From NCBI RefSeq assembly GCF_964340395.1, contig NC_135555.1, positions 4,109,501-4,173,500 on the forward strand: a DNA stretch of 64,000 bases. Reading direction: 5' to 3'. Made by a program: the position numbers and the translations under genes. Shown here piece by piece: positions 12,489 through 59,230 of the stretch. Position 1 is the first letter of the stretch. Each line of letters starts with the position of its first letter. The stretch comes from Glandiceps talaboti (lineage: Eukaryota > Hemichordata > Enteropneusta > Spengelidae). Under the pieces are notes generated by a model. It saw only the letters and a program-made list of their open reading frames with translations. It did not search any database and was not told the origin of the DNA.

Positions 12489-12510
12489 ATTTGTTCAGTG
12501 ATTCAGAATT

Positions 12511-15500
12511 ATGGAAGCTCCACAAGAAGAAGCGCAGCAGCAGCAGCAAGTTGAAGCAACCACCGAAGGTCAAGAGGCTGCATCTACTGCAGCAGGTGAC
12601 AGCCTTGCTGCAGCAACATCCATTAGTGTGCTAGAAAACTATCTACAGAATTTCTCCAAGGAGTTGTCTTCAGAGCAACAGGCTGAGGGTGCTATAGCTG
12701 CTCAGGTAGCTGCACAGCAATCACAACAACAGGATGCTGGTGATGGTGCAGCAGAAGGTGCTGCTGCTGGTGATGAGACAGTTGCTGCTGGTGGAGGAGG
12801 TGATGCAGCTGCTGCTGTTACTGCAGCCGAACAAGAAGATGTTACTCAAACGCTTCAACTGCTTGCAAATGCTTCAGCTGAGATTGCACCACCTGTGATT
12901 GAAAGTGAAGAAGCTGTTAGTGATCCACAACAAATGGCAGTGAACACTGAAGGAATTACAGTGGTTCATGGCCAAGAACATCAACAGCTGACAACAGCAC
13001 AAGGTGTGCCAGTTACCACAGCAGGAGTTGTTGGCATTGACCAACAACAAGTTGTTATGGTTGGAGATATGCAGCCACCTACGCAGCAAGTCCTCATGGT
13101 CGCTATGCAGCAAGATCCAAATGCACCAGCTGAGCAACAAAGTATTGGTCACATGGCTGTATCAGATGTAGCCACTGGTTTGGTTGGTCAACAAACAATC
13201 TATCATACAGCTACCAGCACTGGCGTGACACAGTCTGACGGACAAAACACTCAGGTAATCACCATCATTCAACCTGGTGAAGATGGACAGGGTCAGACAG
13301 TAGTTACCATCGCACCATCTGTCGGAGATGGCACATCTCAGACCATTGGAGATGAGGTGATTCATCATGCTGTGGAACAGGTAACAGGTAGTGGGGAGAC
13401 ATACACTGAACTAGCAACAGTCAAGCCTGAACCTGAAGAGGGTGAAAACAGAGAGGGCGAAGATGACAAAGACAAACGAGTACCACTTAAAAAGAGATCA
13501 GTAAATTCAAACGGTACCCCACTAGACACTGTCAATGTGTCTGAAATACAGCAGACTGAAGGTGACAAAACACAGGAAGGTGAAAGGATTATTATCATAA
13601 CCCAAGTTGAACACCAGGAAAATGGGGGAGCTGTGGGAGAGGCTGGAGGCTCACAGGATCCAGAGGGTAAAGGTTCACAAGATGCTTCTGTGTATGACTT
13701 CTATGAAGGTGAAGATGATGATGCCCCTGTCACTACACCATCTAAAGATGAAAAGGGGGATACACCAAAACGCAAGAAGCGCCAGTACCAGATTCCGAAG
13801 TTTGATGATGGTAGGCTGATTGATCACGTTTTTAACAGAGTCAAAAAGGTACCACCGAGTCCTAGAGAACCCAAGACCCATGAGTGTGATATTTGTGGTC
13901 GTACATTTCGTACATCTACATTGTTACGTAACCATCACAACACTCACACAGGCACCAAACCATACAAGTGTGAGCTCTGTCAGCGAGCTTTTGGTACAAG
14001 CGGTGAGCTAGCCAGACACACAAAATACATCCATACTCATGAAAAACCTCACAAGTGCCCCCTCTGTGATTACATCAGTGTGGAGAGTAGCAAGATCAAG
14101 CGTCATATGAGGTCCCATACTGGTGAGAAGCCATTCAAGTGCCAGCTATGCAGTTATGCAAGTACCGATAACTACAAGCTGAAACGTCATATGCGAGTTC
14201 ATACAGGAGAAAAGCCATTCAAATGTCCTGACTGCGACATGGCCTTTTCTCAGAAGAGTAGTCTGAAGGAGCATCGCTGGAAGCATTCTGGTAACCGACC
14301 AACTCACAAGTGTGACTTCTGTGATGTGACCTTTGGCCGTATAGCTGACATGAAAGCCCACATCCGGAAGATGCATACTCCTGGTGATCCATTGATCTGT
14401 AAAGTTTGTGAGAATGGTTTCTCTGATCGTTACAGCTATATGCAGCACATCAAAACACATCGTGGAGAGAAGATCTACAAATGTGGCCAGTGTGGTTATT
14501 CCTGTCCTCAGAAGAGACACCTCTTGACCCATATGAGGGTTCATACTGGAGAACGTCCTTTCACCTGCAAGGACTGTGGGGAGAGCTTCAAGCATAAACC
14601 AACGCTGATCCATCACGAGAAGACCAAACATGATCCCAACTACCAAGATGATGGTTCAGATGGTGCACTGCAGTGCGATAAATGTGAAAAATCGTTCTCA
14701 CGTACCAGCGCTCTGAAGAACCATCAGAAGAAACACGAAACCATTCTGGTAGCAACCCCAGAGACCAGTGAAAAACGCAAAGCTGAAGAATCTCCTGAAG
14801 GATATTCTTCACCAAGAAAGATGACACGTTCACAAGCCAGGGTAGCCAGTGCTGCTGCCGTTTCAGAGGGGCAGGTGATACACCAGATAGATCCTACAAC
14901 AGTTTCTGGTATTGAGGGCGCTGTGGTAGACGTACAGGGTATCCAAGGAACTGTTATTGGTGTGGATGCTGAAGGTGGTGGCCTTGTCATTCGTGTTGAT
15001 AGTGGTGCCATGGGTGTTGTCAGCACTCCTGATGAAGAAGAACAAGAAGAAGAACACATGGAGACGGGTGAGGCTACAGCAGGTAAATTGAATAGCAATT
15101 GCCTTCTGTTTTTTTTTCACATCTCATATTGATATATATAACTTGGTATACCTAAAATGTCTATGCTGGAGTAACCAGTGCTCAGTGCATTATATATAGA
15201 GCAGTACAAATAAAACAGTATTTAGTAAGACATTGATGAGCCGTAAATATATGTATATAGCTCAGTATAGGTCAACTGACAAGAGCAGTGCTGAACACAA
15301 CAGGATTGTGATTGAAGAGAGAGGGCTTTGTTTACATTAATTCATTTTTTTTAGCTTCCCCTCAATAACAATCATTTTGTGTTCAGCTGTAAAAGTGTTG
15401 TTATCTATCTAGTAAAACAACAACCTAAACTTGCAAACTGATCAACAAATACTTTGTTTATATTAGAAATCATAAAATAGTTTCACCCATATAATTGAAC

Positions 15501-16297: not shown

Positions 16298-17429
16298 TTT
16301 TTTTTTAACTTGAAGTTTTACTAGTTAGTTGTGTGCATGATGACTAAGCTTTCTTATAGTCTATGTCTGTCAGGAAGTTTAGTGATAGAATCAATGTAGG
16401 TAGAATTTCACAGATTGGCTTTGAAATAGTTTTGTTTTAATTTCAATGACTGCAACAAAAAATAATTTCAAGTGAAATAAAAAGAGTAATGTGGTATTGA
16501 ATGTTACAAATTCAAAATTCTTTGAAATGTATGCACATACTACCAAACATCTACAAATTCTGAAATTATGGTTTTAAAAGCTTTGGTCAAGTCATCAGTG
16601 TAGTTTCTAGAACCATGGTCCATGGAAAGTGTACATTTTTTTTATATCGTGGCTGAAAACCAAAAGTTTGTTTTTGTGGCAGTCGTCACTAAGGTAGGAC
16701 AATGTGCATGCTTAAGTACAATGTAACAGGTTTTGATAAATAGTTAGGGCCCACGGTATCTGTGTACTTATTCTTTTATCTTATATTCAGGTTCACTCAG
16801 AAAAAAACTCCTCTCACCACATATTCTTTTGGAACAAAGCTAAATTTGCCACAGGTACATTGTTAGGTTGTATATTCATGGTATTCTAAGGAGAAGTTAG
16901 ATTATTTCAATATACAAAATTACCCCCTCATAATTATTGTGCTGACAACATGTTTCACTACATGTATTCAATGGTATACAGAAGGTTATGCAAGTTGTGC
17001 AAGTGATAAAAGTGTGAAGTAGTTTAGATGTATCAATATCAAGTTTAAGTGTACCAGTGCTTGCTGTCAATCAAATTTCATATACTGTCAGTCTAATATG
17101 AGAGTAGTTTGCATTTCAATTGTAATATTCATATTTAAAGAAAATCTAAAAAAATCTAAAAACAAAAAAAGTATTTGAACTATTTCCTTATATAGCTTGC
17201 TAAATGTTTAGCTGGTTGACAAGACTCATACCCCCTCTTAGTGATTGCTTTATCGTCGATTCTCATTGTCATCGAATTGATTGGAGATTTGAAAATAGTG
17301 TTGCTTTTACAAGATTATAACAGAAATCTGCAAATTTGTTTGGTTCTGTATTTGTTGACACTTCAGAAGTTTTAGGTCGTGCTTCTGCCACATTATAAAA
17401 TGTTATTACCAGTGCAGGTTTACATCATC
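16298..17429 (+). other. Probable CTCF 3' UTR start and 3' flank
   Basis: Non-coding sequence after the CTCF stop codon. AATAAA occurs at about 16477, so a short 3' UTR is possible. Further AATAAA hexamers near 18225 and 19183 allow a longer one. The 3' end cannot be fixed from sequence. Confidence 0.45.
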
Positions 17430-17795
17430 TACAACCCATAACACCAAAGTAAAGTGTTCTCTGTATATACCACAATTATTTATAGCAGCCATATCAACTA
17501 CAACCCTTAACACCAAAGTAAAGTGTTTTCTGTATATACCACAATCGTTTATAGCATCTATATCAACTACAACCCATAACACCAAAGTAAAGTGTTTTCT
17601 GTACTACCACAATCGTTTATAGCATCCATATCAAGTATAAAAGTATGCTGTTTGATTTGTTAATTGACATTACAAAGGCCACAAGCCAGGCTTGTAAATA
17701 AACCAATTGAAACAGTATACTTTTACACTTGATGTGAATGCTATAAACGAGTGTAACACATAGAGAGAATGTTTTACTTTGGTGTTATGAATTGT
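17430..17795. repeat. Fold-back element with a triplicated left arm
   Basis: A unit of 69 bp (TACAACCCATAACACCAAAG..., then ...CAATCGTTTATAGCATCCAT) occurs three times in tandem from 17430. It returns once in inverted orientation at about 17730-17795 (...ATGCTATAAACGAGTGT..., TTTGGTGTTATGAATTGT). The centre is also symmetric (AAAAGTATGCTGTTT against AAACAGTATACTTTT). It looks like a MITE whose left arm has been amplified. It may lie in the CTCF 3' UTR. Confidence 0.75.
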
Positions 17796-19485: not shown

Positions 19486-19606
19486 CTGTGTGTGTGTGTG
19501 TGTGTGTGTATTATATACAGTATGTATGTATGTATGTATGTATGTATGTATGTATGTATGTATGTATGTATGTATGTATGTATGTATGTATGTATGTATG
19601 TATGTA

Positions 19607-19641
<35 letters not shown>

Positions 19642-19814
19642 GTCTGCGTGCGTGCGTATGTATGTATGTATGTATGTATGTATGTATGTAGCAAGTGTCA
19701 CATCTAGATATCTCAGTGATATACTTAATATTTTCAAGACATTGTAAACATCAGTGTTTCTTTTGGTATATTTCCTTGCCAATGTCACTTCTTGTGTACA
19801 CTTCTTAATAAATA

Positions 19815-19845
<31 letters not shown>

Positions 19846-20026
19846 TGTATGTATGTATGTATGTATGTATGTATGTATGTATGTGTGTATGCATGTATGT
19901 ATGTATGTATGTATGTATGTATGTGTGTGTGTATGTACACATGTATGTATGTATGTATGTATGTATGTATGTATGTATGTATGTATGTATGTATGTATGT
20001 ATGTATGTATGCATGTATGCATGCAT
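19486..20026. repeat. GTAT/CTGT/TG compound microsatellites
   Basis: A TG run (about 19486-19509) is followed by GTAT tetranucleotides (19521-19608), CTGT (19609-19637) and again GTAT to about 19690. After 120 bp of unique sequence a second GTAT block runs from about 19815 to 20026 with TGTG interruptions. All long Cys/Tyr/His-rich open frames here, on both strands, are translations of the repeat. Confidence 0.95.
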
Positions 20027-24275: not shown

Positions 24276-25251
24276 TTACAACCTGTCTGTTCGTCGGCGA
24301 CTGGTACGTAGTTGTGGGGATATAGGTGCAGTTAGGGGTACAGTACTTGGAATGACTTGTATTTCTTTGAAATGTCTAATGGGGTTGGGTTTGTGGACCA
24401 TATCGTTTCTTAGTTGTCTTACAGCTTCTTTCTCCATGGTCATGATCTCCTTTTCACGGTTTAGTTTTTCTTCAGCAAGATCACATTCTTTTTTCTTCTT
24501 GAAGTTTTCAAAGTCTTCCCTCTGATGTGCACGTTTGTCTGTGTTCAGCTGGAAGGGTGCCATATCTAATGGAATGAAAACAACAAACATAAATTCAGAC
24601 TTCTGAAGAAATGTTGAAATATTAAAATGAAACACATTTATAAAGAAGGCAAATGTACACCGTGCAGAGGAAACAAGGATATGTAATGGATAATAATAAT
24701 AATGATTAATAATAATAATAATAAATAAATATAAATATTATCTATTTTAAATACAAGTCATAATTTAGGGATGTAATATTTTGCATTTTAGGATCTTGAT
24801 TTTCCCTTTTGTTCCCATCAAACCGGACTAACATTTGGAAATCGGTTTATGTTGAAGTTGGATATTTCAATTCAACATTACTTCATTAATCTCATATTGA
24901 GTAATTAAATAGATAAGTTCATGTGGCATCTGATGAGAACCAAAACTTTATATACCAAAAACTAATGCTGACTGCTCGACTGGCTTGTTCTCCGTTTGTA
25001 AACAGTTCTGATGCAAATATTTGTTTGTCAACAAATTGTGTATTTGTGGGATATTGATATGGTTTGTTCACTAGGCAATGGACCATACATGCTTCACATA
25101 GTAAAAAAAACCAATCAGTCTATCAAATTGTCTGGCACACCGTGTCATTCACTGGTCCTACATTAGCAGGGTAGGCCACTGTATGAAGGCACCTTTTAGT
25201 GGTCCAGTCAGAAGTCTAAACTTTGTAATTATTAATTTATTACCATTGTAT

Positions 25252-25286
<35 letters not shown>

Positions 25287-28200
25287 TGTATGTTGTTTTT
25301 CTTATTTGATGTGTTACATTTGTTTTCTTTTTAACTTGACATATCTCTCGGAGAATAGCAATAATGACAAAATTTTGTTCAAGTTAGTTACTACTGGGGC
25401 TTTAATCTATGCATTCAATTAATATGATTAGTACATACCTGTCAATGGTCGTTGACCCGTCACAGGTATAAATGGTTCTTCATATAACACTTTAGTAGGC
25501 CTTGCTTTAAAAGCATTAGCCTGGGCTCTCTGGTTCTTAAGTTCTTCTTCCATCTGTAAATATAAACAATTCAAGTTACACAACGTGACAACAAATTGAC
25601 CAGACTTCAGTATCACACAGTAATTTCAGTCATTCCTACTAGCTAAACTCACCAAATGAGGCTTCTTTTCAGATACACATAGCATTACATTAGTGATAGC
25701 CAAGTTGAATGGATACATATTTCATCCTTCAACAATTTCTCTTTTAAATACAATGACGTTGAAGAGTTTTTGTAAAATGTTGAGTATGTAAAATTTACTA
25801 GTGATTTACCACATAACACATCTAAAATTCTTCATAAACAAAGTTACGCTATGTATAAATACATGGGGAGAAAATCTGTAAATTTTATGAGATATTCCCC
25901 TACTGAGCTAGAGTTTTGAATTCTTGGGGAATAACATCTTGATAATCAATATTTGAATAATGAATCATTCTTGCCAGCCAAAGTATAATGACAAGACGAA
26001 AATAAACACACTGGTGTAATTAGTTCTACTGATCACACACTAAACGAAAAAGTCTCTCTGATTGGCCCTTATGGTTAGTCGAAGAAGCTGGCTTCAAATC
26101 TGCTGAACAGTAGTCCGTTCAACAATGGCCTTTGCATCTGTTAAGCACCACTGTAAAGAGGCTAGTGGTTTGATGATGATGATTGCAATCTTGCAATGAC
26201 TTTGTAGGATCTACCCCCCCCCCCCCCCCCCCCCCCCCCCCCAGTAGGAACAAAGATCTAGCACTGAATTTCAAACACAAACATCCAATGACAGCATACA
26301 TACCTTACGAGCCCATTCATCTGCTGCTATAGTTCCTCTTTCTTCCACACGCAGTTGGAATGGTGCTGGTCTGGTTACTTCTTTTGGTTTCTTGACAGGC
26401 AAACCTTTCAAAGATGGGCTTGGTAAGGTTTGCGCCCTGAACTCTCTTGCCTGGGATAACAGATATTGTTATTTTTACATGGTGTTTGCAATTAGAGTCA
26501 AGAAATATTGATATTCCCATTTTCACGGCCTCTACTTGATATCATTGGTGGACAAAACACATTGCTAGAAATGTATACATAATTGTATTACAATATAGGA
26601 GGAGCTTGGACACCAGTCAAGTAAAAAAGCATGACTACAATTCTTACCGCTTTCATTTTTGCTACAACTGTTGTAAGGATTTTGTCCCTAAAACCTTACT
26701 TTAACACAGTTGCTTGCTGCAGCTTGACAATACAACTGACACTACATCATCGTTGTTTTCAACCATGTATAACTTCAACAACTTTCAGAATGACTAGACT
26801 AAAAAAACCAAACACACCATACCTTCTTTTCTTCCATGAACACCTGCTGTATCTTCTCTTCCTTCTTTGCCATTCTTTCCTTGTCGCGGTCATCAAAGGT
26901 GAATGGTTGTATCTCAGTATGTTTGTGGTCAATAACTGGTTTGAATATGATTCCTGGTTGGGGTGCTGGTCGTGAAAATTTTACAGGCTTCTCTCGTTCG
27001 TCCTGTGTAGGAGTTAAAGACAAATCAAATAAGATATGATTTCTTTCAGGATGCTGGACACTGGTAATATTGTTTACATCCAAAACTCAAGAAGTTCTTG
27101 GTTTATACACATTCATTTATTCCCACTGGCCTGTAGCAAACCTTTTGAAAATGACTAAATCCTACTGTTCAAAATCAACTTCTGTCTGCCATGATGACAA
27201 ATTCTGTAAGGATAATAAATATATATTAGCTTCTCATGGATCTATATCACTTTTATTTGACAAAATAATAGTTTACCTTGAAACTCTCGTCCTCTTTCTG
27301 AATTCGTACTCTGTTTTTCAATGCAAATGCTGGTGATTTGGGGCACGTCACTGGTATTGTCTTCTTCTCACCAACACCCTGGATATGAAAATAATATATT
27401 AGCAACATACAAACCACAAAAAGTTATAACACTAGTAATGCTCACATGCTAGAAACTTCACATATCTCAACGTGCACGTATAAAATTTTAAACTCCCTCA
27501 GAAATCACTTTCACTTGCTGTAAAGGAGAACTCACAAATCTTTCATGTTGCATACTATTATAAATTTTGCACATAATCTGAAAATTTAATCATTAAAAGG
27601 TATGCTCTTGTATATCATTCTCCTTACCATCGGTCTTTCAAGTATTTTTGCAGGAACTGGCCGCGCATGAAATTCAAACTTGTTTTCTTCTTTAGGCTTA
27701 GAGGCATCCCTGACTTCATTTCTGGAGCGGGTTTCAAATTCAAAACCAACAGGTTCAGTGCACTTTTTCTTGGCTGTTTTCTTTGGAAGAACGACTTTGT
27801 CAGTGAATAGGTGTGGATTTACAGGTTTGGCTTTAAACTTGTACCTGAGAGGAATGATAGATAAACAGATATTACATCAATAGTCGCAGTTCAATGAAAG
27901 GCCTATGTTGAATTGGAACTTAAGTTTGGGTGAGAAAAAACAGTAGTCTGGCAATTCTATGGGAAAAATTACTTACTGTTTCATTTCTTCCACTTCCTGA
28001 TCTTCTTTGTCTTGAGCACTCGCTACTGTATAACTTCTCTTTCTGTGCCTTGTTTCCAATAATGGTGTCTTTGCAATAGTTAATTTTGAACATGGTTTCC
28101 TCTTGCCCATCTGAGGAGTGTTTCCTTTAGAGACAACACAGTTATACATTCAATGTATGATTGTCAGTCAGTTTAATAAGCCCAGTTCAGATTAGGCTAG

Positions 28201-31200
28201 GTTAAACTTTAGGTGAGAAAAACAGTTGTGTAGTAGAGCTACAAAACGAAATTGCCTATTCTACCTAATTAATCTCTGTGGTTCCACTGATAAGATGACA
28301 CTGATACAACACCCTGGGATTGAATCTCTGGCCTTTAAGCAGTTCAAAAGTGAACTAAATCTTTGGATATACAAATTCATCTTGACCATGAGATAGTACA
28401 TGTACAGTACATTTGATGGAATTCAACTTTGTGACCAAGTATGCTGTTTAGATCAAGCAGGGTTCTCCACAATTTAGAAAAATACAGGGGCGCCCTAATT
28501 TGCATATTTATTTGCATATCATTAGCATATTTCCAGATCATAATATTAGGAAGTGAAAAAAGTTTCCAAAATCAAAAACTCCTATTTTATTCATTCAGCA
28601 AACTAAAATGTACTGAAATGTATTGTAATCACCAATTTCCAAACCTTTCACATAATTCACAATGTAAAAATTTCAGGAAGGAGGTTGACAGTTACACAAA
28701 CGATGTTATAGTAATGTTGGCAAGCATGTTTTACACACAGGAGTGACAACACATGGCATTGTTGATGTACATGTATGCACCTCTAGGCTAGCTATCACTT
28801 AGTTTTGAGTTGTTGGTTTCACCTTGTAAATGTGCATGTCATTCATAAAAATTAATTGAAAACAATTCATTTTCCTTTATTTCTCTAAAATTTGATATCC
28901 TTTTAATTTTCATGAATGGAAAATGATTTTTCATCCAAATTTGCCGGAAATACGTACATTTTTAATGTGACGAATTTGGGCTAAGAATAACCGAATACGT
29001 TCAGTGCAAATGTACAGTAACAAACATGGCTGCCACATCGGAGCTACCTCGTGGTACTACGATCGCGATTCACATCCAAACGTGATCATTTAGGACATAA
29101 ATTTTACCATGGAACCGTACCGGAGTAGTTATTTCTAAAGAACATGTATAAATTTTAGGATTTTGTTCGTATTTATCGATACAATACGAAAATTGCCGTG
29201 ACATCGTACATCGTATGCGTACTGTATTGCGTATACGGGAAGGCTTGGAAATTACCGGCTTGATATACCCGGCCATAGAAACTACCAACGTACCGTCTTC
29301 TACTTTACGACGGTACTACATTTACTGTTTTTTGTTTCGGCTACCATTGTTATAATCAAGGCGATAAATAAGTTCATAAATGATGATAGACGCAGTGTCG
29401 CTGTTCACTTCCTTCATTAACGGCATTGAATAGAATCTCTTGAAGACGTTCACACCAAAACAAAGGGGCGCTGAACGCAAACAGAGGGGCGGTCCATGAA
29501 AACAGAGGGGCGGTGCGCCCCTCAAAAACCCCTCGTGGAGAACACTGTCAAGGATTCAGAAATCACATTTGCAATCAAGAAAATACTACCACCATTGTCT
29601 ATACACACGGTGACACCATTATATGTGATAAAGTACAGTATTTAAAGACAGATTTTTACCTCTACTTCTTGGCTTCTGGCGGAATCGATCTGGTGTTTTT
29701 GACTGGAATTCATTGACAAGGACAGCCATTGGTTTATACACAGGTTCATCTTGTGTTTCACTGATTTTGCGTTTACGTTCATTGAAGTGGAATGGCATGG
29801 CTTTGGTTGGACCTTTCCTTGGATTATGCTTTGTATAAAAGGGGGGAAAGACGTGTTTAAATATTTAATTGATCTAAACATAGCAGATAATTTACTGAAA
29901 GAGAGTTGAGTCTAGTATCTGATTCATCACAACATTTAATAAATACTATTAATAATATAGAATGGCTTACAGGAGCGTAAAGGATGTCTGACTTCTCATT
30001 TTTTGGAATAAATCCCTAACAATTTACTTTGAAATTCAGTACTGTAAAACAGTACAGAATTCCAAAATTGTCATATACATTCAAACTGAATCTGACTTGG
30101 GACTGAGTTACATGCAAGACTAAATAAAATAAAATTTTCACTTTGGCATTTTAGAATTTTATATTATGTGTAATCATACCAATAATTTCTCCTGTTAGAT
30201 AATGACAAAATAATGAGCCAGTAACAGTAGCAAAACTTGGACTCAGCATTTTGGTATTCTTTGCGATGTAATGTTTTTGTGCTAATGCATGAAACTGAAA
30301 TATGGTAAACTAAATTGTACAACTCACTGGAGATGGTGGATGGCTTCGCAAACTTGACTTGAAGTCTCTTTCTTTAGCATCACTCCTTGTTGTCATGGAA
30401 TGTGACTTAAGTCTATCATCAGTAGCAAAGTGAAACTCTTCCACATGCGTACAAGTACGTTCTGATCGTACTGGTGCATGACCTGAGGAAGTCTGTGACT
30501 TCTTCATTGATTCTTCAGCAACTCGGCGTCTCTCTACTAGTTGATGTCTTAGTTTAGCTATCTTCTCCATCTCAAGTTCCTCTGATGACTTGAATGATGC
30601 ACCTGGTTTCACACCAACGCGTCTGTTAAAGGGAGGGGAGGGGGGGGGGGAAAGGAAGAGTAAAATTGTGGTTTAAGTTTTATTTACTTCAGATAGGATG
30701 ATACAAAGTATTTGTGATTAATCCTGTATATGATGACCTCTCTTAGAGGTCAGGTCATCTGAAATTTCCTCTAAATCTGAAGCATTCAAATGTACAAGCA
30801 TGACCAGATTACCCTAAACTAGACTCCATTAATATCTAAGGTAATGAATTAATACACTCAGTATTAGGGCAATAAGAAAACTACTAGTACAGTGGGATTC
30901 TGGAGAGAATGGACAAAAGTAAAACTGAAGTGAAACACAAACCATATGTGACAAAAATCCAATAGATGGTGAGATAGAAGAACATTGATAGTTTGAAGAG
31001 GCAATGGCATGTGTTGTTCCTTATATAAGAATAAAAATATACTGCGTCTACTCAAGATTAAGGGAAACAGCTATGAAAGGAGTGGAACGAACGGAGGATA
31101 GGAAAAATAATTTATTATATTTGTTATCATTAGAGTCGACATAAAATATATAAATAAACACATAACTGCTATCATTCCCAACTATTAGGTAAACTATTCC

Positions 31201-33906
31201 GACTTTTCTATCTTTTTACAAGTAATATACATATAGACACTTTAAAACATTTTTGGTCTGATTAAATTCTAGTAGATTGACTTACTTCAGACAAGTAGGT
31301 GTAGATGGCAAAGTAAGCTTAAGTTTCTTCATCTTTGAACTTTCAATTTTTTTATTTGCTTCTGTTCTACTTCTCTTTGTTGCAGGCCCATCTAATGATC
31401 GTGTTTCTCGCCTGATTGTTTGACTCTGTGCCTTTACCCTAGGTGAACACCTGGTACCACGAACGCCATTCTGAATCTGTGTAGTGGTTGATACTTTCTT
31501 GTCTGTATTCTTTAGGTGTTGCTGTCTAGCTCTTTGTCTAGAGACACAAACAAGTGAACAAAATTACATTTTGTCCTCGATGATGAATTAAGAACTGTGA
31601 TAATCCTAGTAACAGAGGTGGAAATCAGGTAAATTTGTACTGATTTCAAAACCATGACGGTAGCGTAAGATTGATGGGGACAACTCCAGTAACATAACAT
31701 ACTTGGGGAACTCAGGTAGATTTTACAAATGTAAATACTTTTCACCTAACAAAACATAGAGAGTCAGTTTTGTTTAAGTTCTGTTATTCCTGACTATTGA
31801 GACATTTTCCTAGGGTGACACAATTAGGTGCAGGACTCTGATGTTTATCTAAATTCTGCCACTGAGACAACCATTCATTTTTTAGACAATTAGAAGAACG
31901 TCTCAAGAATCAAAGATCTGTGTTATGTCCTCAAGTTACCAAGTTAAAATTAAGCAGACATATTCTGAAAAAGAAATAAAATGTCTATATATGGATCATG
32001 TGCAATAACCAGGATTATAATAGAAATGTGAATATTTACCTATTCAACTGCAGTGAGTCAACGTTTGACACAAGAACATCATTATTACCTAAATTTACAA
32101 TTTCAGACTTGGTAGCTTCAAGAAATATATGATACTTGATGACAATTTATTTTGCTGATGTCTTTACTTGTTCTTACCTCATCATTTTCTTGTTTTCTGT
32201 ACTAGCTACTCCACTGGTTGTGGTTTCATTACCAGATGTGTGCTTAGCTTTCCATGCCGTGAAGGTCTTTACAATATTCTTTGGAACTTTCACTGCATTG
32301 ACTATTTCTTCTGAATCTAAAAGTGGGTTGTTTCAATGAAATAAAATTAACACATTTTTAAAAATAGTAATCATGAGTATTTGTAAAAGTAAAATCAAAC
32401 TTGCAAGCGATTTAGAATGACCTCATTTCAGACACTTGGTTAAAATAATATCATCACATCCAATTATGGTCTCAGATGTAACACAGGTATAATCATTGGT
32501 CATTGGGATACAATCACACATTGTCCGGTCCCTATAAAACACAGAACACTCCTGGTGGTGTTTTTACCTTCTGAGGCTGGCTGTTGAGGTTCTTCAACAA
32601 CTGGTTCAGTTTTTTCATCTTCCATACTCGTTTCCTCAACAGTGTCTAAGTTAGCTTCAGTGTTTTTATCACTTGGTAAAGTTTCTGTGATAAAGAGAAG
32701 AACCAAAATAACAATGTCAAACAAAAGATCAAAGACCTCTTTCTAGCCAGAGCCAATGCTCTATTTCAAGACACTCTTGGTGACCAGACTTTGCTACATA
32801 CATGTACGTAGGGAAGTCTGTCATCAAGCTAAATGATCACTATATGCCAGTATTTACACAAAATGTTAGAAAGTCACAAACAACTCAATTTCAACAAAAT
32901 CACCTGTATCAATGGTATTTGAGGTGCTTCCATTATTTGGATTTGGGGCTACTGCCACCGAGACACGTTTTCCGTTGATAACAGAGAATCTCACTGGAAT
33001 GCCATTTTCATGATCAAAGTCTGGAAGGAATGAAGAAATAAAGAAATATGGTCAGCATTGCATTGTAATACACTATGCAATCATTTGAAATAAAAAAGAA
33101 ATACAGATTTAAAATCTATAGATGTAAAAATCTCCCTTCAATTATCTATTACAAAAGTTAAAACACTTCAAAATGATGAGTATGAAATGATACAAATGTC
33201 TTCACGATTCCAAGATGAGGGAGGGGTATTGGCATTTGATCTTTTCCATACTTCTTGCTTGAAACCAATTAGAATTACAAACTTTCCTGCAGTTTGTTTG
33301 TCCTTGGTTTATCAGGTGGTAGCTCTACCCATGGAGGTAGAATCTTAGGCTGGATGTCAACGTGGTTTCTAACTAAACCACGAGTGAGTGAGAGGTGTAA
33401 ATCATAACGATACTGAACTAGACTAGTAGTAGTAGAATCTAGGACTTTGATTCTGTCTCCATATTCTACCAAATCCATCTTACCTTAAATATAACACATG
33501 CTACAACAGACATGCCCTAACCATCCCTTGATGACTCAGAACTTCGTGAAGTAAAATAAACATGGTTGTACACCATAGTCTTACTTAGGGCATACATGTA
33601 CACATGATACAAAAATACAACCGAGTAAGGAATCATGACCAAGGTCACATGCAAGTTTGAATGACAAAAATATTCCTGTTTTAGGTTTGTAACTTATTTT
33701 CATAATAACATTGTAGCTGCACGCCAAGTCGCAATATACCTGAAGCTAGAGTGGAAATGGGCTAATGTGAGATTTTGTTGATATTATTTATACTCACTGA
33801 AATAAGAGTCAGCGCCATCATCATAAAATTCCGTCGCTGTAGCCTCTGAAAAATCTACGAACTGTGGAGCATTGTAGTCCCAATCGCCGTCTACCGGTGC
33901 ACTCAT
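24276..33906 (-). CDS. TPX2: TPX2 spindle assembly factor
   Basis: Fourteen coding exons, 5' to 3': 33798-33906, 32904-33020, 32568-32684, 32178-32316, 31286-31537, 30328-30622, 29660-29828, 27977-28124, 27628-27844, 27277-27378, 26823-27002, 26304-26450, 25439-25553, 24276-24565. All joins are GT-AG and in phase, giving 798 residues (human 747). The N-terminus (WDYNAP at 9-14, SYF at 34-36) fits the Aurora-A-binding segment. A conserved block PSTPTCLK ends exon 5. Repeated PF-x-F-x4-R modules follow ([46 protein letters not shown]), then FKARP at 679-683. The C-terminus has PFQLNTDKR, a coiled coil and [10 protein letters not shown], the family's kinesin-5-binding tail. TPX2 is released from importin by Ran-GTP in mitosis, nucleates microtubules and activates Aurora A. 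Transcription starts from a promoter shared with CIAPIN1. Confidence 0.93.
25250..25287. repeat. (TTTA)n microsatellite in TPX2 intron 13
   Basis: About nine copies of TTTA in the intron between the last two TPX2 exons. The Phe/Ile/Tyr-rich plus-strand frame here is an artefact of the repeat. Confidence 0.9.
26214..26242. repeat. C29 homopolymer in TPX2 intron 12
   Basis: Twenty-nine consecutive C, hence G29 in the TPX2 pre-mRNA, starting about 60 nt after the donor of exon 12. It is followed by CAGTAGG, as is the C19 tract at 58275-58293. Confidence 0.9.
28125..29659 (-). other. TPX2 intron 7
   Basis: Intron of 1535 bp, mostly filled by the 1.1-kb inserted element at 28458-29547. Without the insertion it would be about 445 bp. 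Confidence 0.75.
28458..29547. mobile_element. Non-autonomous hAT-like transposon in TPX2 intron 7
   Basis: The 1090-bp insertion begins CAGGGTTCTCCACAA and ends ...GTGGAGAACACTG, inverted ends that also share GGGGCGC farther in. TCAAG flanks both ends, an apparent 5-bp target duplication. CAG ends are characteristic of hAT transposons, most of which make 8-bp duplications, though lineages with 5-6 bp are known. Near the right end GAGGGGCG recurs three times (29458-29520), like the subterminal repeats to which transposases bind. No transposase frame is present. Confidence 0.7.
33021..33797 (-). other. TPX2 intron 1
   Basis: The largest early TPX2 intron. It carries copy B of the TAGTCT-family element. 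The open frame at 33275-33478 is formed partly by that element and is not an exon. Confidence 0.7.
33346..33425 (+). mobile_element. TAGTCT-family micro-MITE, copy B
   Basis: Contains in order CTGGATGTCAACGTGG, AACTAAACCA, GTGTAAATCATAACGATAC and GAACTAGACTA, the block order of copy A at 21444-21522. Confidence 0.65.
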
Positions 33907-34238
33907 AGTTCTAAACGATCGTCAAAATATCAAAATTGGAAAGTATGATGCGAACAGGCTGGCAAGTTATATATTTTGTGACAAAAACACACGAGTTTGA
34001 ATAGCAGCTCGCTATTATAAATCTCCAACGCCAACCGTTCTGTTCAATTTTAGCTCTTTACACGTATCCACCAATCAGAATGGAAAGATTCACGACTTCT
34101 GATTGGCCGACGGGAAATCATCGCCCTCGGGAATCATCGGTATTTATACGAAGTTCACCGAACATGAACCACTTCCGGTTCAAGGGATTAGAGCGAGGAG
34201 ATCTCGAGAACGTGTGACGACTCTTGCGTTTTATCAAT
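33907..34238. promoter_or_regulatory. Bidirectional TPX2/CIAPIN1 promoter
   Basis: The TPX2 start codon (33906, leftward) and the first inferred CIAPIN1 exon (rightward, donor TCAAT|GTGAGT at 34238) are less than 340 bp apart. In between are two CCAAT boxes in opposite orientation (34071-34075 and 34102-34106, centres 31 bp apart), an AACCGTT MYB-like motif (about 34033), TTTGAA (33996-34001, the CHR hexamer but reversed for TPX2) and the ETS/GABP motif CCACTTCCGG (34169-34178). Paired CCAAT boxes at about 31-33 bp are common in cell-cycle genes such as TPX2. The motifs are seen; the function is inferred. Confidence 0.7.
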
Positions 34239-35042: not shown

Positions 35043-38000
35043 ATGTTTGAGGAGATCAAGTCAGGACAGCATGTGTTGTTGTTATGGGGAGGTTCTTCTC
35101 CTGCAGCTAATCTACAAGACATAGTGAAAGATTTGATTTCAAAGGTTGGAGATGATGGCAAGGTTCAGGTGGAACATGTAGAGAGATTACATTTGTGTAA
35201 GTATAAGCCCAGCTTTGTTCCACATGCAAGGAAACATCACAGTACAGTAACAAATATGCATAAAATTGACCCATCTATGTTGTAAGTTGGAGTGTATTAT
35301 TATGTTTTGAATTTCAAACACAGGGGTATAGGGCTCCTTTCCCAGTGTTGTGAGTTTAATACTTGAGGCCAGGACATGAAAGCATACCCATGGGCTGTAC
35401 TGGAGCTTGGTGTTAGATACATTTGAAATGTGAAAATGGTTACTTGACTCTCAATACTACCTAATACCTACTGCCAGGACCTAGGCTAGTGAGCTATTGT
35501 ATGTGGTCAGAACAACGTCTCATTGTAATTTCCGTAATAATACTATTATTTACTATGTTGTCATTTCTGAAATGATGTAGTTAAGTTGAGATAACACACA
35601 TAATGGTCACTTAAAACACCCCTTTGTCTACATCATAGGTGAGAACTTAAATGTCAGTTGACAAATTTGACTTTTTCCTCAAACTGTTTTTCATATTGGA
35701 GATATTAGAGAGAAGTAGATTAGTACAATTGCCATACTTGAATTATTTAGAATCATGTCATGCTTCTGTAAGGAGAAAACATGTAAGTCTGTTTCGCAAA
35801 TATCTAGTTTGTGTTATTGAAGGCTAACATTTCATTGTCACATCTTTTACCCAACAGCTGAACATAAAGATTCAACGTTTGACGTGACAGTGTCAGGTGT
35901 GTTGCAACCAGTAGTTACCGTCCACAGTGCAGATATACTGGCTGAAATAGCAAGGATATTGAAACAAAATGGTAAACTTATAGTGAGGGAACCAGTCTCA
36001 CAGAATGCAGACAGTAAACTCAGAACAGCAGCTAAACTTATCAGTGCTGTTAAACTTTCAGGGTTTGTTGATGTTTCACAGGTAAGAATTTTATACAATC
36101 GTCAACTTTGGTAGTGAGGTGAATATGAGCATGGTAAAGGATTACATGTAAAGTCCAATACAAGATGATTTTGACAAATGATTGCAGGAACCAAGATATT
36201 TAGTTATGGTTTTGTTATGAAACTTAGTGAGCTAGGCTCAGTCCAACTACAAAATGATAACACTTTTTAAAAGTGGGTCTTGAGGATTGTAGCAATGGAT
36301 TTGTTTGCTTTAGGTCTTGGTTTTCATATATATGCAGATAAAATCTTTATTTCAACATTTTGGCATTAGACAGAAAACCTTCTTCAGGATACTAAAAAAG
36401 AAAATAAAGAAAGGACAAATAATGAGTAAAAAGAAATACAATATCAGATAAAAAGTGACATCTTAACGGTTTGAAAATGTACTTCTCTTCTGCCATATAT
36501 TGATCACTGACTGTAAATGTTCTATTTACCCAAATAATGGATATTGTTATTGAAATCAATGTGAAAACATCAAGTATGTGACATAGTGTGTAACCCTTCT
36601 TGGCTAGTTTGTCTACTGTACAGGGTGAAGGATTGTAACAGACAAGCTTTCCCCCAGAATATACTCTTTATCACAGTGAAACGTGCATTTAAATTGTTAA
36701 GTTTAAGTATACAATATATCAAGAAATTATAGAGTAGAAACCCCACACTATGAAGGCCTTTATAGCAAGCTCATTTGTGCCATTATTTATGATATACTCT
36801 TTAATACTATATCTCATGATCTTACCACAGCCCAATGCAGTGTATCTCAGTGTACATTTTATGATATACTCCCTAACACTATATCTCATGATCTTACCAC
36901 AGCCCAATGCAGTGTATCTCAGTGTACATTTTATGATATACTCCCTAACACTATGTCTCATGATCTTACCACAGCCCAATGCAGTGTATCTCAGTGTACA
37001 TTTTATGATATACTCCCTAACACTATGTCTCATCTTACCACAGCCCAATGCAGTGAATCTCAGTGTACATTTTATGATATACTCCCTAACACTATGTCTC
37101 ATCTTACCACAGCCCAATGCAGTGTATCTCAGTATACATTTTATGATATACTCCCTAACACTATGTCTCATCTTACCACAGCCCAATGCAGTGTATCTCA
37201 GTATACATTTTATGATATACTCCCTAACACTATGTCTCATCTTACCACAGCCCAATGCAGTGTATCTCAGTATACATTTTATGATATACTCCCTAACACT
37301 ATGTCTCATCTTACCACAGCCCAATGCAGTGTATCTCAGTATACATTTTATGATATACTCCCTAACACTATATCTCATGATCTTACCACAGCCCAATGCA
37401 GTGTATCTCAGTGTACATTTTATGATATACTCCCTAACACTATGTCTCATCTTACCACAGCCCAATGCAGTGTATCTCAGTATACATTTTATGATATACT
37501 CCCTAACACTATGTCTCATCTTACCACAGCCCAATGCAGTGTATCTCAGTATACATTTTATGATATACTCCCTAACACTATATCTCATGATCTTACCACA
37601 GCCCAATGCAGTGTATCTCAGTGTACATTTTATGATATACTCCCTAACACTATGTCTCATCTTACCACAGCCCAATGCAGTGTATCTCAGTGTACATTTT
37701 ATGATATACTCCCTAACACTATATCTTATCTTACCACAGCCCAATGCAGTGTATCTCAGTGTACATTTTATGATATACTCCCTAACACTATATCTCATCC
37801 TTACCTCAGCCCAATGCAGTGTATCTCAGTGTACATTTTATGATATACTCCCTAACACTATGTCTCATCTTACCACAGCCCAATGCAGTGAATCTCACAG
37901 ATGATGAAGTTATTGAAATAAAGAGCAATCTTAAGTGTACTGCTGATCTAAGTGTTGTGAAAGTCACATGCAGTAAACCAGCATTTGAAATTGGTTCCAG

Positions 38001-40532
38001 CTCTCAGTTATCTCTCAGTTTTGCAAAGAAAACCAAGACAGAAACAGGTTTGTCTTCAATTTTGTGATGATGTACCTTGCTAATGGAGTAAAATTAATAT
38101 TTTAGTGGTTGTATTGTATTTTTATGTAAACTGTCCTGTTGAGAACAGTCACCAAAGAAGATTCATAACATTAAACCATATATTGGAATATTCTAGAATT
38201 GTCATTTTCTAGCTGAAGAATTTTGCTATAATTAATAATGTATTTGATTTCTGTACTAGACAAAACCAGCAATGCAGCCAAAGTATGGACTTTGTCAGCT
38301 ATGGACATGGCAGATGATGAAGTAGTAAGTTTGAAATTCACTGACATTTCCTTACTATTAATGTGTTTCTTTACCATGACCAAGGATTCTTATTAGGGTG
38401 ACCCTATTTTTTTTCTGTTTCTCATTACCCAGACCAACCCAAATTGTCAGCTCCGACATTTTTATTTTCGCCTGCCTTTAATAATATTTTGCGGAACAGA
38501 GCCCTCTCTGGCAAAAAATAAGCAAGGGTCTGGACTGTCGATGTCATGGCGATGATGACAACACTTGTTCACAAACAGAACATTTCTTTCATGATGGAAG
38601 ATATTCAGGGGTGGGAGTGGTGGAGAACATGCCAATTGTGTAGACAAGCTGGGAAAGAGCTTCTTATGAGGAATCCAATAAAAAGTAAGATAGAGAGGAG
38701 GAAAAGGAGATGCAGTGAAACATGAAGAAGCTAATTTTTAATTTTTTAAATTTTTTCTTAACATTGATTGACCATCCAACAGACCCAAAAACTTCACACC
38801 CAATGTGAAACAATGCTATAAAATTAACACCACTGTATTACAGCAATGAAAACCCATATTTTAATATGAACAGATCTAATTGACAAATTTTATTTAATTA
38901 GGATTTAGTCGATGAAGATGATCTTTTAGATGATGACGATTTCCTCAAACCTGATCCATCATCCCTTAGAGGTAAGAATAAATTGAATGATTTATTTTGT
39001 CCCATGTTGACTTCAAAGACACTCAACGTAATACATGTACTTGAGAAAATTTCAGTGGTACTGTGCACAAACAGACAGACAATTATATGTAAAAAAAAAA
39101 GAAAAAGAATATATATGTTAATAAGTTTTCAAATGGCTACAAACTCATCTTTGTAAATAAAATCATTCTCAATATCATTATAAACTACAGTTTGTATGAC
39201 TACTGGGGTAAGCTATAATGTTTATGGTTTGTTGTGTTTCTGTTTTCATTTTGAATAGCTGAGTGTGGTCCTGGTACCGGAAAGAGAAAAGCCTGCAAAA
39301 ATTGGTAAGACTACATCACTATGAATTTATAGAAATGTTCTGTGTACTCTGGGTATTGTGTCTCCTCCACTATATCTTCTGTTTTTATGCTAAATTAAAA
39401 GGAAATGATACCTTGAGAATTTAGTATGTTTATAAAAACTTGGATAAATTGCACTGGTTTCATTCACTTTCACTTATCAGTACAGAGCTGGTATTGATCT
39501 GAACCTAGGCAGAAGTGACATACTGGCCTTGCTTGACAACTTCTGTTAAATATGTCGGGGGGGGGGGGGGGGGGGTATTTTTTGGTGGCAATAGTGATGG
39601 TGGTGACACCTATAGCATCAGTAGTGAATGATAATGTTTCAGACTTAATCGTTACACATCAGTGACACATAATCAAATATATTTAGTCATTGCTACATCA
39701 TAAATAGAATATTTGTTTTCTCTCATTGTAGTTCATGTGGACTTGCTGAAGAACTTGAAAATGAGAGTAGTTCTCAGAAGAAATCAACACAGAAAACTGC
39801 CAGCTCAGCTTGTGGAAGTGTAAGTTTTTAGAATCCGACAAGTAATCTCAAAGACTGCTAGTACTCAATACAGGAAGCTTTGGTGGAGAGTGGGTTTAGG
39901 ATGGAATTGATTATTAGTGGTTGATTGATAGCAAACATCGTATTATGCTAATTTTGAGTGCCAAATTTGACAATTTCAAAAATAAAGGCAGGGAGGCAAT
40001 ACCATTTGTGATGGTATTTTTGCTATGAGTATAGTTCTCTTGCAGAACTCAGTTTCGTGTTTATCTATGCCTATATTTGAAGGATAAGTCTATTGCATAG
40101 CGAGCAGAACTTGCTTTGATTCTTTCTATGCCAATAATACATTTCCCAGATTTCAAATGTGTCATATTTGCAGGGTATTGTTGCCATGGTTATTGTACCC
40201 TTGTAGCAGAGAGGGAGATTACAATAGAATGTAGAATTCACCATATATCAAAGCCTGTATTTGAAGTGGAAGTCTCATGTACGGCTTGCAGAAATCAGTT
40301 ATATTCCTATTTACTTTAAATATTATCTCCCAGATTTCAAATATGTTAAAGTTTTAGACTGTCTACAAAGAAAAGGTTTGCTATTTTCTCTTACATTTCA
40401 TGCATTTTTCTCTTTTAGTGTTATCTGGGTGATGCTTTCAGATGTGCAAGTTGTCCATATCTTGGAATGCCAGCATTTAAACCAGGAGAGAAGATTTCCC
40501 TCAGTGACAGACAACTAAAAGCTGATGCTTGA
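35043..40532 (+). CDS. CIAPIN1: CIAPIN1 (anamorsin), Fe-S assembly electron carrier
   Basis: Coding exons: 35043-35196, 35858-36081, 37879-38047, 38260-38324, 38902-38971, 39259-39304, 39732-39819, 40419-40532. All junctions are GT-AG and in phase, giving 309 residues (human 312). Residues 1-180 are the methyltransferase-like fold ([32 protein letters not shown]). Then come the linker [13 protein letters not shown] and an acidic [14 protein letters not shown] segment. Two Cys motifs close the protein: C230-x9-C240-x2-C243-x-C245 and C270-x2-C273-x7-C281-x2-C284, then [13 protein letters not shown]. The family carries Fe-S clusters and, with the diflavin reductase NDOR1, feeds electrons to cytosolic Fe-S assembly. 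It was first named as an apoptosis inhibitor. The first Cys motif has nine spacer residues where the human protein has eight. Intron 3 holds a tandem array of copies of the exon 4 acceptor. Confidence 0.93.
36775..37878 (+). repeat. Tandem array of decoy 3' splice sites in CIAPIN1 intron 3
   Basis: Each unit holds CCCTAAC (branch-point-like), CTATGTCTCATCTTACCACAG and then CCCAATGCAGTG, about 20 nt matching the start of the real exon 4. CCCAATGCAG starts at 36831, 36903, 36975, 37044, 37113, 37182, 37251, 37320, 37392, 37461, 37530, 37602, 37671, 37740, 37810 and finally 37879, the true exon. Spacings are 69 or 72 bp, with a single 70. The 72-bp form has an extra GAT. There are no stops in the coding frame of the unit, and the opposite strand is open as well. 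The long open frames on both strands (359, 384 and 296 codons) are by-products. The array clearly arose by amplification of the intron/exon boundary. Confidence 0.95.
39557..39575. repeat. G19 homopolymer in CIAPIN1 intron 7
   Basis: Nineteen G on the transcript strand between coding exons 39259-39304 and 39732-39819. A candidate for strong RNA structure. Confidence 0.9.
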
Positions 40533-54564: not shown

Positions 54565-54955
54565 CATGTGGCAATCATAGTCTGTAGATTTGTGGACTTT
54601 AGAATATTATGAATGTGGCTGTTGTGGACTCTAGAATATTATAAATGTGGCCATTGTACTCTGTAAATTTGTGGACTCTAGAATATGTGGCCATCGTAGT
54701 CTAGATTTGTGGACTCTACAAATTACAATTTTATAAATGTGGCCATCGTGGTCTGTAAATTTATATAATAAATGTGGCCGTTGTAGTGTAGATTTGTGCA
54801 ACTTTACAATATTATAAATGTGGCCATCCTGGTTTATAGATTTGTATTATAAATGTGGCCATCCTGGTTTATAGATTTATGTAACAAATGTGGTCGTTGT
54901 AGTCTAGATTTGTAGACTATATATATAAGAATATAATATTAAATGTGGCTGTTGT
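54565..54955. repeat. Irregular minisatellite, about 10 units
   Basis: AAATGTGGCCATCGT followed by GTCTGTAGATTTGTGGACT recurs at about 54565, 54612, 54645, 54687, 54737, 54772, 54815, 54851, 54887 and 54942. Period varies from 33 to 55 bp. Most units keep TGTGGCC(A/G)T. Confidence 0.8.
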
Positions 54956-57540: not shown

Positions 57541-57650
57541 CCATTTGTACATGATTTGCTGCAGTAAACATTTTTACAAGATTTACTGCAGTCAACATGT
57601 GTACATGATCTGCTGCAGTCAACTTTTGTACATGATCTGCTGCAGTCTAT
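57541..57650. repeat. Short tandem repeat, about 4 units
   Basis: Units resembling TGTACATGATCTGCTGCAGT, about 30 bp apart, occur four times. Confidence 0.8.
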
Positions 57651-59090
57651 ACAGTAGACAGACCTACTGTTTGCAGGAGTGACATCAAACTTAGATTATG
57701 AAAGCTGAGTAAGTGCATGTCATTTTGATGAGAAAGCTATGAGTACATAGACTATTGTAATGACTCTGTTTTGAAGAGAACTGTACCTGGCAATGTCTTT
57801 TTACTGACATTGATGATATATAGATTGATAGTCTATAAGTTTGATGACTAGATAGTCTGCATGTATTAACTAGATTTCCAAGGTCATCTCAGTAGTCTAC
57901 ATTTGGAGACCTAATTGACTGGAAACCGTTGCTTCAAAAGCCATGCTATGTCGTTGCTGTTTTACAAATGGTTTGTGATGGGTGGTGTAGGAATGTCAAC
58001 CTTAGAATCTCTTTATTTTCTCTTAACCTTAAATTCATATTATGGTATAGACCATTGTATTTCCTTTAGTTTTATCTACACTGGAGAACAGAAGAACATG
58101 AACTCTAAAGAGTGGTTGCTAAGATACCCTTCCCCACCCACTCCTGTCCTCCATAAATGGACTGCAGGTGGAATAGCACTGCTATGGTGAAATTGAAGAC
58201 GGATTGATGGCCAAGCATAGTACTTGGTGGCTTCCACCTGAAGGGTAGTAAGTATTCCAAGAATAGAAGGTCGTCCCCCCCCCCCCCCCCCCCAGTAGGT
58301 TTCCTAGAAAGTTTTCAAAGAAAGTCATATGTTTTGCTGTAGCTACATGTAATAATAATATGTGTCTGAGACTGCTATTGGAAGAGGTACATTCTAAATA
58401 ACTAGTTGTATACATGTAAATGAATGTTGGTGTATTAGCAGTTGGACCTTGAGGTGGTCAGCATTCTTGGAACAGATGTGTTTCTTAGAATAGCTTTTTG
58501 AAAAAGATAATACCTTGTCCTTCATTACTCTATAGGCATACAGCTATTAGGAATAGATGGCTGGATGTGGCAGTGTTTTGCTTCAGTTAATGCATATATT
58601 TACAGTCTCAATAGTCTTGTCCCCACCTGAATTGATTTGAAGTGGATACAAACTGAATTAATTCAGTTAAATTGGTTCGAAACCAGTTTCTGTCCAGACT
58701 TGTACATTTTATTTTGATGTTTGAATTAAATCAGCATAGCATAACTAGAACATTTTCAATGTGACCGTAGCCATAATGCATTGTTATTTTGCAGAGGTCT
58801 AGAACATATGTCATTTATGGTGGAAAATGTTCCTGTGTCTAATCCTGAATTTCTTTACTCATATTCTGTCATATGGTCATGTTTGGAATTTTATTTCTTT
58901 CCTAAATGTGCCATACTTAAAGGTCAAATAAAGTGTATACGCAAAAGAAGAATTGAAATATTTATTTTATACATTTGATCAATTTAGGGTGACGTATTTA
59001 ATTTACTTTCCATTCACTAGTATGTGTCATTTACAGTTTCAATTTAGTCCAATTACAGTCATTTGCATCGACAAAAAATACCAACTGAAT
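57651..59090. other. Non-coding, one C19 tract
   Basis: C19 at 58275-58293, followed by CAGTAGG. The open frame at 57915-58190 has no recognisable domain. Nothing else is supported. Confidence 0.5.
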
Positions 59091-59230
59091 TTCTCTGTAT
59101 GTGTTAGGGATTGCAATCAATGCTGTAATATCACACTGATATTTTAATGTTAAATGTAATTTCTGTGTATGTGTTAGGGATGGCAATCAATGTAGTAATA
59201 TCACGCTGATATTTTAATGTTAAATGTACT
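59091..59230. repeat. 70-bp tandem duplication
   Basis: 59091-59160 and 59161-59230 are near-identical head-to-tail copies (GTATGTGTTAGGGATTGCAA against GTATGTGTTAGGGATGGCAA), differing at a handful of bases, so this is a recent duplication. Confidence 0.9.

Follow-up and report, generated by a model that had tools for sequence, protein, structure and literature searches.

A sixteen-copy minisatellite repeats the 3′ splice site of CIAPIN1 exon 4 in the acorn worm Glandiceps talaboti and is most likely tolerated

Introduction

In the enteropneust hemichordate Glandiceps talaboti (family Spengelidae), intron 3 of CIAPIN1, the gene of anamorsin, ends in a row of acceptors that closely resemble that of exon 4, which raises the questions how such an array arose, which of its 3′ splice sites is used and whether the additional copies serve a function. 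The locus lies in a window of 64,000 nucleotides (assembly GCF_964340395.1, contig NC_135555.1, positions 4,109,501 to 4,173,500 of the forward strand), and all positions below are counted from its first letter. An initial annotation of this window had offered two readings, a copy-number-dependent splicing rheostat or a recently expanded, tolerated minisatellite. The present analysis favours, with considerable confidence, a 69-bp segment straddling intron 3 and exon 4 that became a 16-copy minisatellite and is most likely tolerated rather than selected.

Results

Structure of the array

Tandem Repeats Finder delineated an array with a period of 69, 15.9 copies, 96% matches and a score of 1947. 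The string CCCAATGCAG is present 16 times in the window, from 36831 to 37879, and its copies are spaced by 72, 72, 69, 69, 69, 69, 69, 72, 69, 69, 72, 69, 69, 70 and 69 nt. Each unit comprises the end of intron 3 (branch-point-like motif, pyrimidines and CAG) followed by the first 19 nt of exon 4; copies 1–15 are decoys and copy 16 is the authentic acceptor at 37879. The features of the array are as follows.

36786–37897, + strand: tandem array with 16 units of 69, 70 or 72 bp (Tandem Repeats Finder, unit alignment, genome matches)
36786–36849, + strand: copy 1, an edge copy with TTTAAT replacing the CTAAC region (unit alignment)
37044–37062, + strand: exon part of decoy 4 (the decoy equals the authentic junction between −72 and +19)
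37740–37809, + strand: 70-bp frame-breaking step (copy spacing, frame analysis)
37810–37878, + strand: last decoy to authentic acceptor, in frame; would insert 23 residues, strongly hydrophobic

The repeat finder and the spacing thus reproduce the 15 decoys, the authentic acceptor and the single 70-bp step (37740 to 37810) of the initial annotation, whose view of the unit as a real acceptor module taken from the intron 3/exon 4 junction and repeated as near-equivalent acceptors in a row also holds. Its finer description required some correction. The CTAAC motif, claimed for every copy, is found in 14 of the 15 decoys, copy 1 carrying TTTAAT at this place. The distance of about 23 nt, said to separate CTAAC from the pyrimidines, is correct for the authentic site when measured from the branch-like A to the exon, so that the pyrimidine tract is included in it; it is likewise 23 nt in the 69-nt units, 24 nt in copy 15 and 26 nt in those 72-nt units that have CTAAC. 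Instead of about 20 nt of exon 4, each copy contains exactly 19 nt, in which decoy 4 agrees fully with exon 4 and each of the 14 other decoys deviates by a single base (TGTATC for TGAATC).

The copies are otherwise very similar. Variation affects 19 of the 72 columns of the unit alignment, gap columns counted, and is mainly due to a 3-nt indel and to copies 1 and 15, the edge copies; the differences that recur are this indel and two A/G sites. Higher-order periods of 210 and 279 are superimposed on the 69- and 72-bp unit types. Decoy 4 (37044) equals the authentic junction over 91 nt, decoys 10 and 13 match it from −72 to +12, and decoys 5, 10 and 13 from −56 or further to +12. Judged from the sequence, the TGAATC shared by decoy 4 and exon 4 suggests either that array and exon have exchanged sequence or that decoy 4 is a preserved ancestral copy.

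The gene and its protein

Joining eight coding exons from the window yielded a protein of 309 residues which is identical, over 100% of its length, to the NCBI entry "anamorsin homolog [Glandiceps talaboti]". The placement of the array before exon 4 of CIAPIN1, as initially annotated, is herewith established. The protein contains the domains Anamorsin_N (PF20922, E 9.4e-57) and CIAPIN1 Fe-S (PF05093, E 1.7e-22), and solved anamorsin structures match its residues 5–167. The exons and intron 3 are arranged as follows.

35043–35196, + strand: coding exon 2 (joined exons identical to the NCBI protein)
35858–36081, + strand: coding exon 3 (joined exons identical to the NCBI protein)
36082, + strand: intron 3 donor, CAG/GTAAGA (donor scores)
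36082–37878, + strand: intron 3, holding nearly the whole array (exon borders)
37879–38047, + strand: exon 4, authentic acceptor at 37879; its first 19 nt form part of the last array copy
38260–38324, + strand: exon 5 (joined protein; also matched in the genome protein search)
38902–38971, + strand: exon 6 (joined protein; also matched in the genome protein search)
39259–39304, + strand: exon 7, short and unmatched in the genome protein search (joined protein)
39732–39819, + strand: exon 8 (joined protein; also matched in the genome protein search)
40419–40532, + strand: exon 9 (joined protein; also matched in the genome protein search)

When the assembly (590 Mb, 47 contigs) was searched with the protein, all seven matches at E 0.001 or better were exons of one CIAPIN1 gene, which therefore appears to be single copy in this assembly.

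Strength of acceptors and donors

Splice sites were scored with simple frequency matrices that are not fitted to G. talaboti. On this scale the authentic exon 4 acceptor reaches 7.68, the second highest value among the eight acceptors of the gene (0.36–8.71), and the decoys range from 5.85 to 7.68, with 7.35 for the last one at 37810. Among the other AGs of the gene, five of 327 attain 7.68 and none of the 327 has CTAAC in position. As decoy 4 is identical to the authentic site over its entire 91 nt, local sequence cannot discriminate between the two, and only position and exon context can decide.

The seven GTs in the scanned stretch of the units score −4.2 or lower as donors, compared with 0.8 or higher for the seven donors of the gene examined. 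Mini-introns or micro-exons within the units were ruled out because these GTs are too weak. The units thus seem to be devoid of a usable donor, and use of a decoy would produce a longer exon 4 and not a pseudo-exon. Folding of 227 nt of RNA over the last copies gave z = −1.70, and 13 of 200 shuffles folded as well.

Reading frames

From acceptors 1–14 the frame is lost and a stop follows at 37902–37904, and acceptor 15 is in frame and stop-free, adding 69 nt or 23 residues, both as initially annotated. The insert contains a membrane-like stretch of 19 residues with a mean hydropathy of 1.96 and would fall between residues 126 and 127, inside an N-terminal domain which is confidently predicted for the normal 309-residue protein modelled without insert (mean predicted local distance difference test score of 97 for residues 121–130). 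In an alignment of 120 proteins, including that of G. talaboti itself, the junction region is exactly 19 residues long in 118, 18 in one and 20 in another, and none of the 120 has an insert of eight or more residues there.

The units are free of stops in the exon frame, as the initial annotation had pointed out, but this openness is unremarkable. With the exon part fixed, the frame likewise stayed open in 43% of the 20,000 shuffled sequences and in 38% of 8,950 50-mers of the window; a stop-free exon frame is not unusual and fits chance, and a multiple of three is expected for one unit length in three. A frame of 388 residues running through the array was compared with 7,994 scored candidate proteins and matched none of them at E 0.01 or better. 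In view of this missing match and of the chance level of openness, a coding function of the array was rejected.

Acceptor used in the known protein

The NCBI protein of G. talaboti (309 residues, one member sequence) corresponds to canonical splicing at the last acceptor, 37879. Among the best 120 of 3,192 protein matches listed there was neither an insert-bearing nor a second isoform of G. talaboti, and no other row exceeded 70% identity. NCBI puts "isoform" into the names of genes with several proteins, and the name of this record is without it. A retrocopy that might have recorded splicing was not encountered either, the assembly containing no second CIAPIN1 match and no exact exon 3–exon 4 junction string.

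Origin of the array

All 16 unit matches found in the assembly (at least 16) lie inside the array, and the whole array was matched once (at least once), these counts being lower bounds; very common words are skipped by the search. That the search located the unit nowhere else points to a local duplication spanning the intron–exon junction. The left flank, TTTGTGCCATTATTTATGATATACTC, resembles the start of the unit, and the right end of the array lies 19 nt into exon 4. From these two features, we infer a local duplication over the intron 3/exon 4 border with subsequent expansion as the simplest history.

For the base rate of such arrays, 19 loci of 10 kb (190 kb, of which 10 kb are N) were sampled. 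Six arrays of at least 10 copies and a period of at least 20 bp were present in four of the 19 loci, four of these arrays measuring roughly 1 kb or more. The genome of G. talaboti may accordingly be minisatellite-rich. Naive scaling of this small and clustered sample would extrapolate to the order of twenty thousand such arrays genome-wide; if so, some units would straddle acceptors by chance and selection would be unneeded for a single case. The frequency of minisatellites in the sampled genome makes a neutral origin sufficient.

Long-minisatellite stretches were noted in the sampled loci L010, L013, L016 and L020, with up to 80 repeats of 34 bp (L013:1-2721) and 67 repeats of 43 bp (L016:1-2909).

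Other features of the window

On the minus strand, a TPX2-like gene extends over 24276–33920, with a PF06886 match at 24276–24737 and a below-cutoff PF12214 match at 30310–30672. By eye, its two pieces putatively form one gene, the 5′ end of which is head to head with CIAPIN1 at a distance of a few hundred bp. An open reading frame of 876 residues at 12502–15132 (+) encodes C2H2 zinc fingers, the only family reported for it by Pfam; its make-up resembles that of CTCF. Further short tandem arrays occupy 17424–17634 (period 69), 54628–54893 (81/35), 57542–57647 (27) and 59088–59228 (70), and a microsatellite of TGTA-type repeats covers about 537 bp at 19487–20023. The open reading frames at 56–61 kb contain no exon recognisable by eye, without family search.

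Discussion

The data are best accommodated by a neutral scenario. A 69-bp segment that joins the 3′ terminus of intron 3 to the initial 19 nt of exon 4 would have become a minisatellite and expanded to 16 copies, thus placing 15 acceptor copies upstream of the real one. The last acceptor would be favoured because it alone adjoins the body of the exon and lies closest to the exon 4 donor, and because the units offer no usable donor of their own. Splicing to a decoy would add 69 to 1,048 nt to exon 4, and most products would be substrates of nonsense-mediated mRNA decay (NMD) and be removed; some leakage from decoys into NMD perhaps occurs.

Several points weigh against this scenario. The decoys are transcribed ahead of the authentic acceptor, and the equality of decoy 4 and of decoys 5, 10 and 13 with the authentic site makes a real competition plausible. 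Exon definition is weakened by the weak authentic donor of exon 4 (simple score of 1.0). NMD transcripts would not appear in NCBI protein lists. Finally, the minisatellite sample is small and clustered, three of the six arrays belonging to one locus and 10 of the 190 kb being N.

A rival reading is the rheostat of the initial annotation, according to which the share of decoy use grows with array length, feeds NMD and thereby sets the CIAPIN1 level. It draws on decoys that are identical or nearly identical to the authentic acceptor, 14 of 15 of them leading to a stop, and is kept alive by the 31-bp variable number tandem repeat (VNTR) at an exon–intron border of human CBS, for which lower activity with more repeats is reported (PMC5188458, which calls the sequence non-coding; table entry PMC1395315). 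A toy model weighting acceptors by added exon length yields NMD shares from 1% to 88% and authentic shares from 6% to 90%, set only by the strength of the exon-length penalty; it is, however, an assumption and not a measurement. Moreover, the open frame is explained by chance, and minisatellites were common in the loci sampled. The rheostat is thus left without direct support, as the NCBI protein uses the last acceptor and the frequent minisatellites make a neutral origin enough, and we consider it unlikely. Slightly more doubtful still is its extended form, in which the acceptor-module minisatellite attenuates a single-copy Fe-S assembly gene to a degree set by array length, each added copy diverting part of the splicing to NMD and unequal exchange changing the dose between individuals. 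Were this true, unequal exchange would also homogenise the first six codons of exon 4.

Tandem arrays are a common source of assembly errors, and the expansion might be false. However, the copies differ in an orderly manner, with 69- and 72-bp types and the higher-order periods, and the 1.1-kb array resides in a window without N inside a 28-Mb contig, which renders an assembly artefact very unlikely. A regulated isoform in which the last decoy inserts the 23 hydrophobic residues would preserve the frame without a stop and start from an acceptor with a score of 7.35. It is opposed by the lack of such a protein among the best 120 matches listed, by the absence of inserts of eight or more residues from the junction region of the aligned proteins and by the position that the membrane-like 19-mer would take inside a confidently predicted domain, and has, in our judgement, a marginally smaller chance than the artefact. 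The least credible proposal, to which we attach almost no weight, is a dispersed satellite or mobile element landed by chance in intron 3. Other minisatellites with periods of 69 and 70 do exist in the window, but all unit matches in the genome are confined to the array, the unit includes 19 nt that encode part of CIAPIN1, and matches elsewhere in the window extend over just 12–26 bp. A dispersed-repeat origin was rejected, the search having located no unit elsewhere in the assembly.

The tolerated minisatellite can be placed among known systems in which splice sites are multiplied. NAGNAG-type acceptors are a few nucleotides apart and share one branch point. Like the array, such tandem acceptors are neighbouring alternatives in one intron, whereas in G. 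talaboti every copy comes with a separate tract and branch-like motif. Decoy exons have splice sites on both sides. Those promoting intron retention, for example in OGT, are likewise non-productive intronic sites that could engage the spliceosome, but the units of G. talaboti seem to lack a usable donor, and assignment to this class, in which an acceptor is paired with a usable donor, was rejected on the donor scores. In Arabidopsis NTM1, the length of a GTT repeat near an acceptor is reported to affect splicing, through intron retention (PMC12177298). That repeat is similarly close to an acceptor, but it is a microsatellite whose unit contains no splice sites. The SmPoMuc mucin genes of Schistosoma, with exon 2 tandemly repeated up to 20 times according to PMC2576457, likewise place numerous acceptors one after another in a single gene; in that case it is whole exons that are repeated and joined, in contrast to units without usable donor.

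The closest relatives are found on the donor side. The array is a boundary-spanning splice-site minisatellite, since its unit contains the authentic junction and exon sequence, in this case at the acceptor. The CBS VNTR (c.1444_1467+7, 16–21 copies) has a unit that, by its name (PMC2630376), comprises 24 coding nt at the end of exon 13 together with 7 nt of intron 13, and likewise is a minisatellite across an exon–intron border. It differs in being on the donor side, polymorphic and linked to activity, whereas the G. talaboti array is known from one assembly. In intron 7 of human F7, 37-bp repeats are present in variable number, and normally only the most upstream, exon-proximal donor is used, the report (PMC6627357) implying a copy of the splice site in each repeat. 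F7 thus resembles the array as a splice site repeated in a minisatellite, yet it multiplies 5′ donors in 37-bp repeats and not 3′ acceptors in units of 69–72 bp. Its behaviour supports the idea that proximity to the exon favours the last acceptor in CIAPIN1, although the mirror image is inexact, because the decoys here are transcribed before the authentic site.

The initial annotation knew of no described acceptor-module minisatellite. This holds insofar as none was found in the accessible open-access literature, which is weak evidence of absence with most subscription journals outside its coverage; it has to be qualified by the published donor-side counterparts, F7 and CBS, of which the array is an acceptor-side variant. 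Even if ordinary, the locus illustrates the extent of acceptor duplication that a single-copy gene can bear and, with the start of a coding exon lying inside a minisatellite, coding and intron sequence may exchange. It further provides a natural test whether, among identical 3′ splice sites in a row, the first transcribed or the one on the exon body is chosen, and is probably useful in this respect rather than as a known control switch. Boundary-spanning minisatellites that multiply donors and tandem whole exons are known; the array of CIAPIN1 probably adds their acceptor-side counterpart, which is likely neutral.
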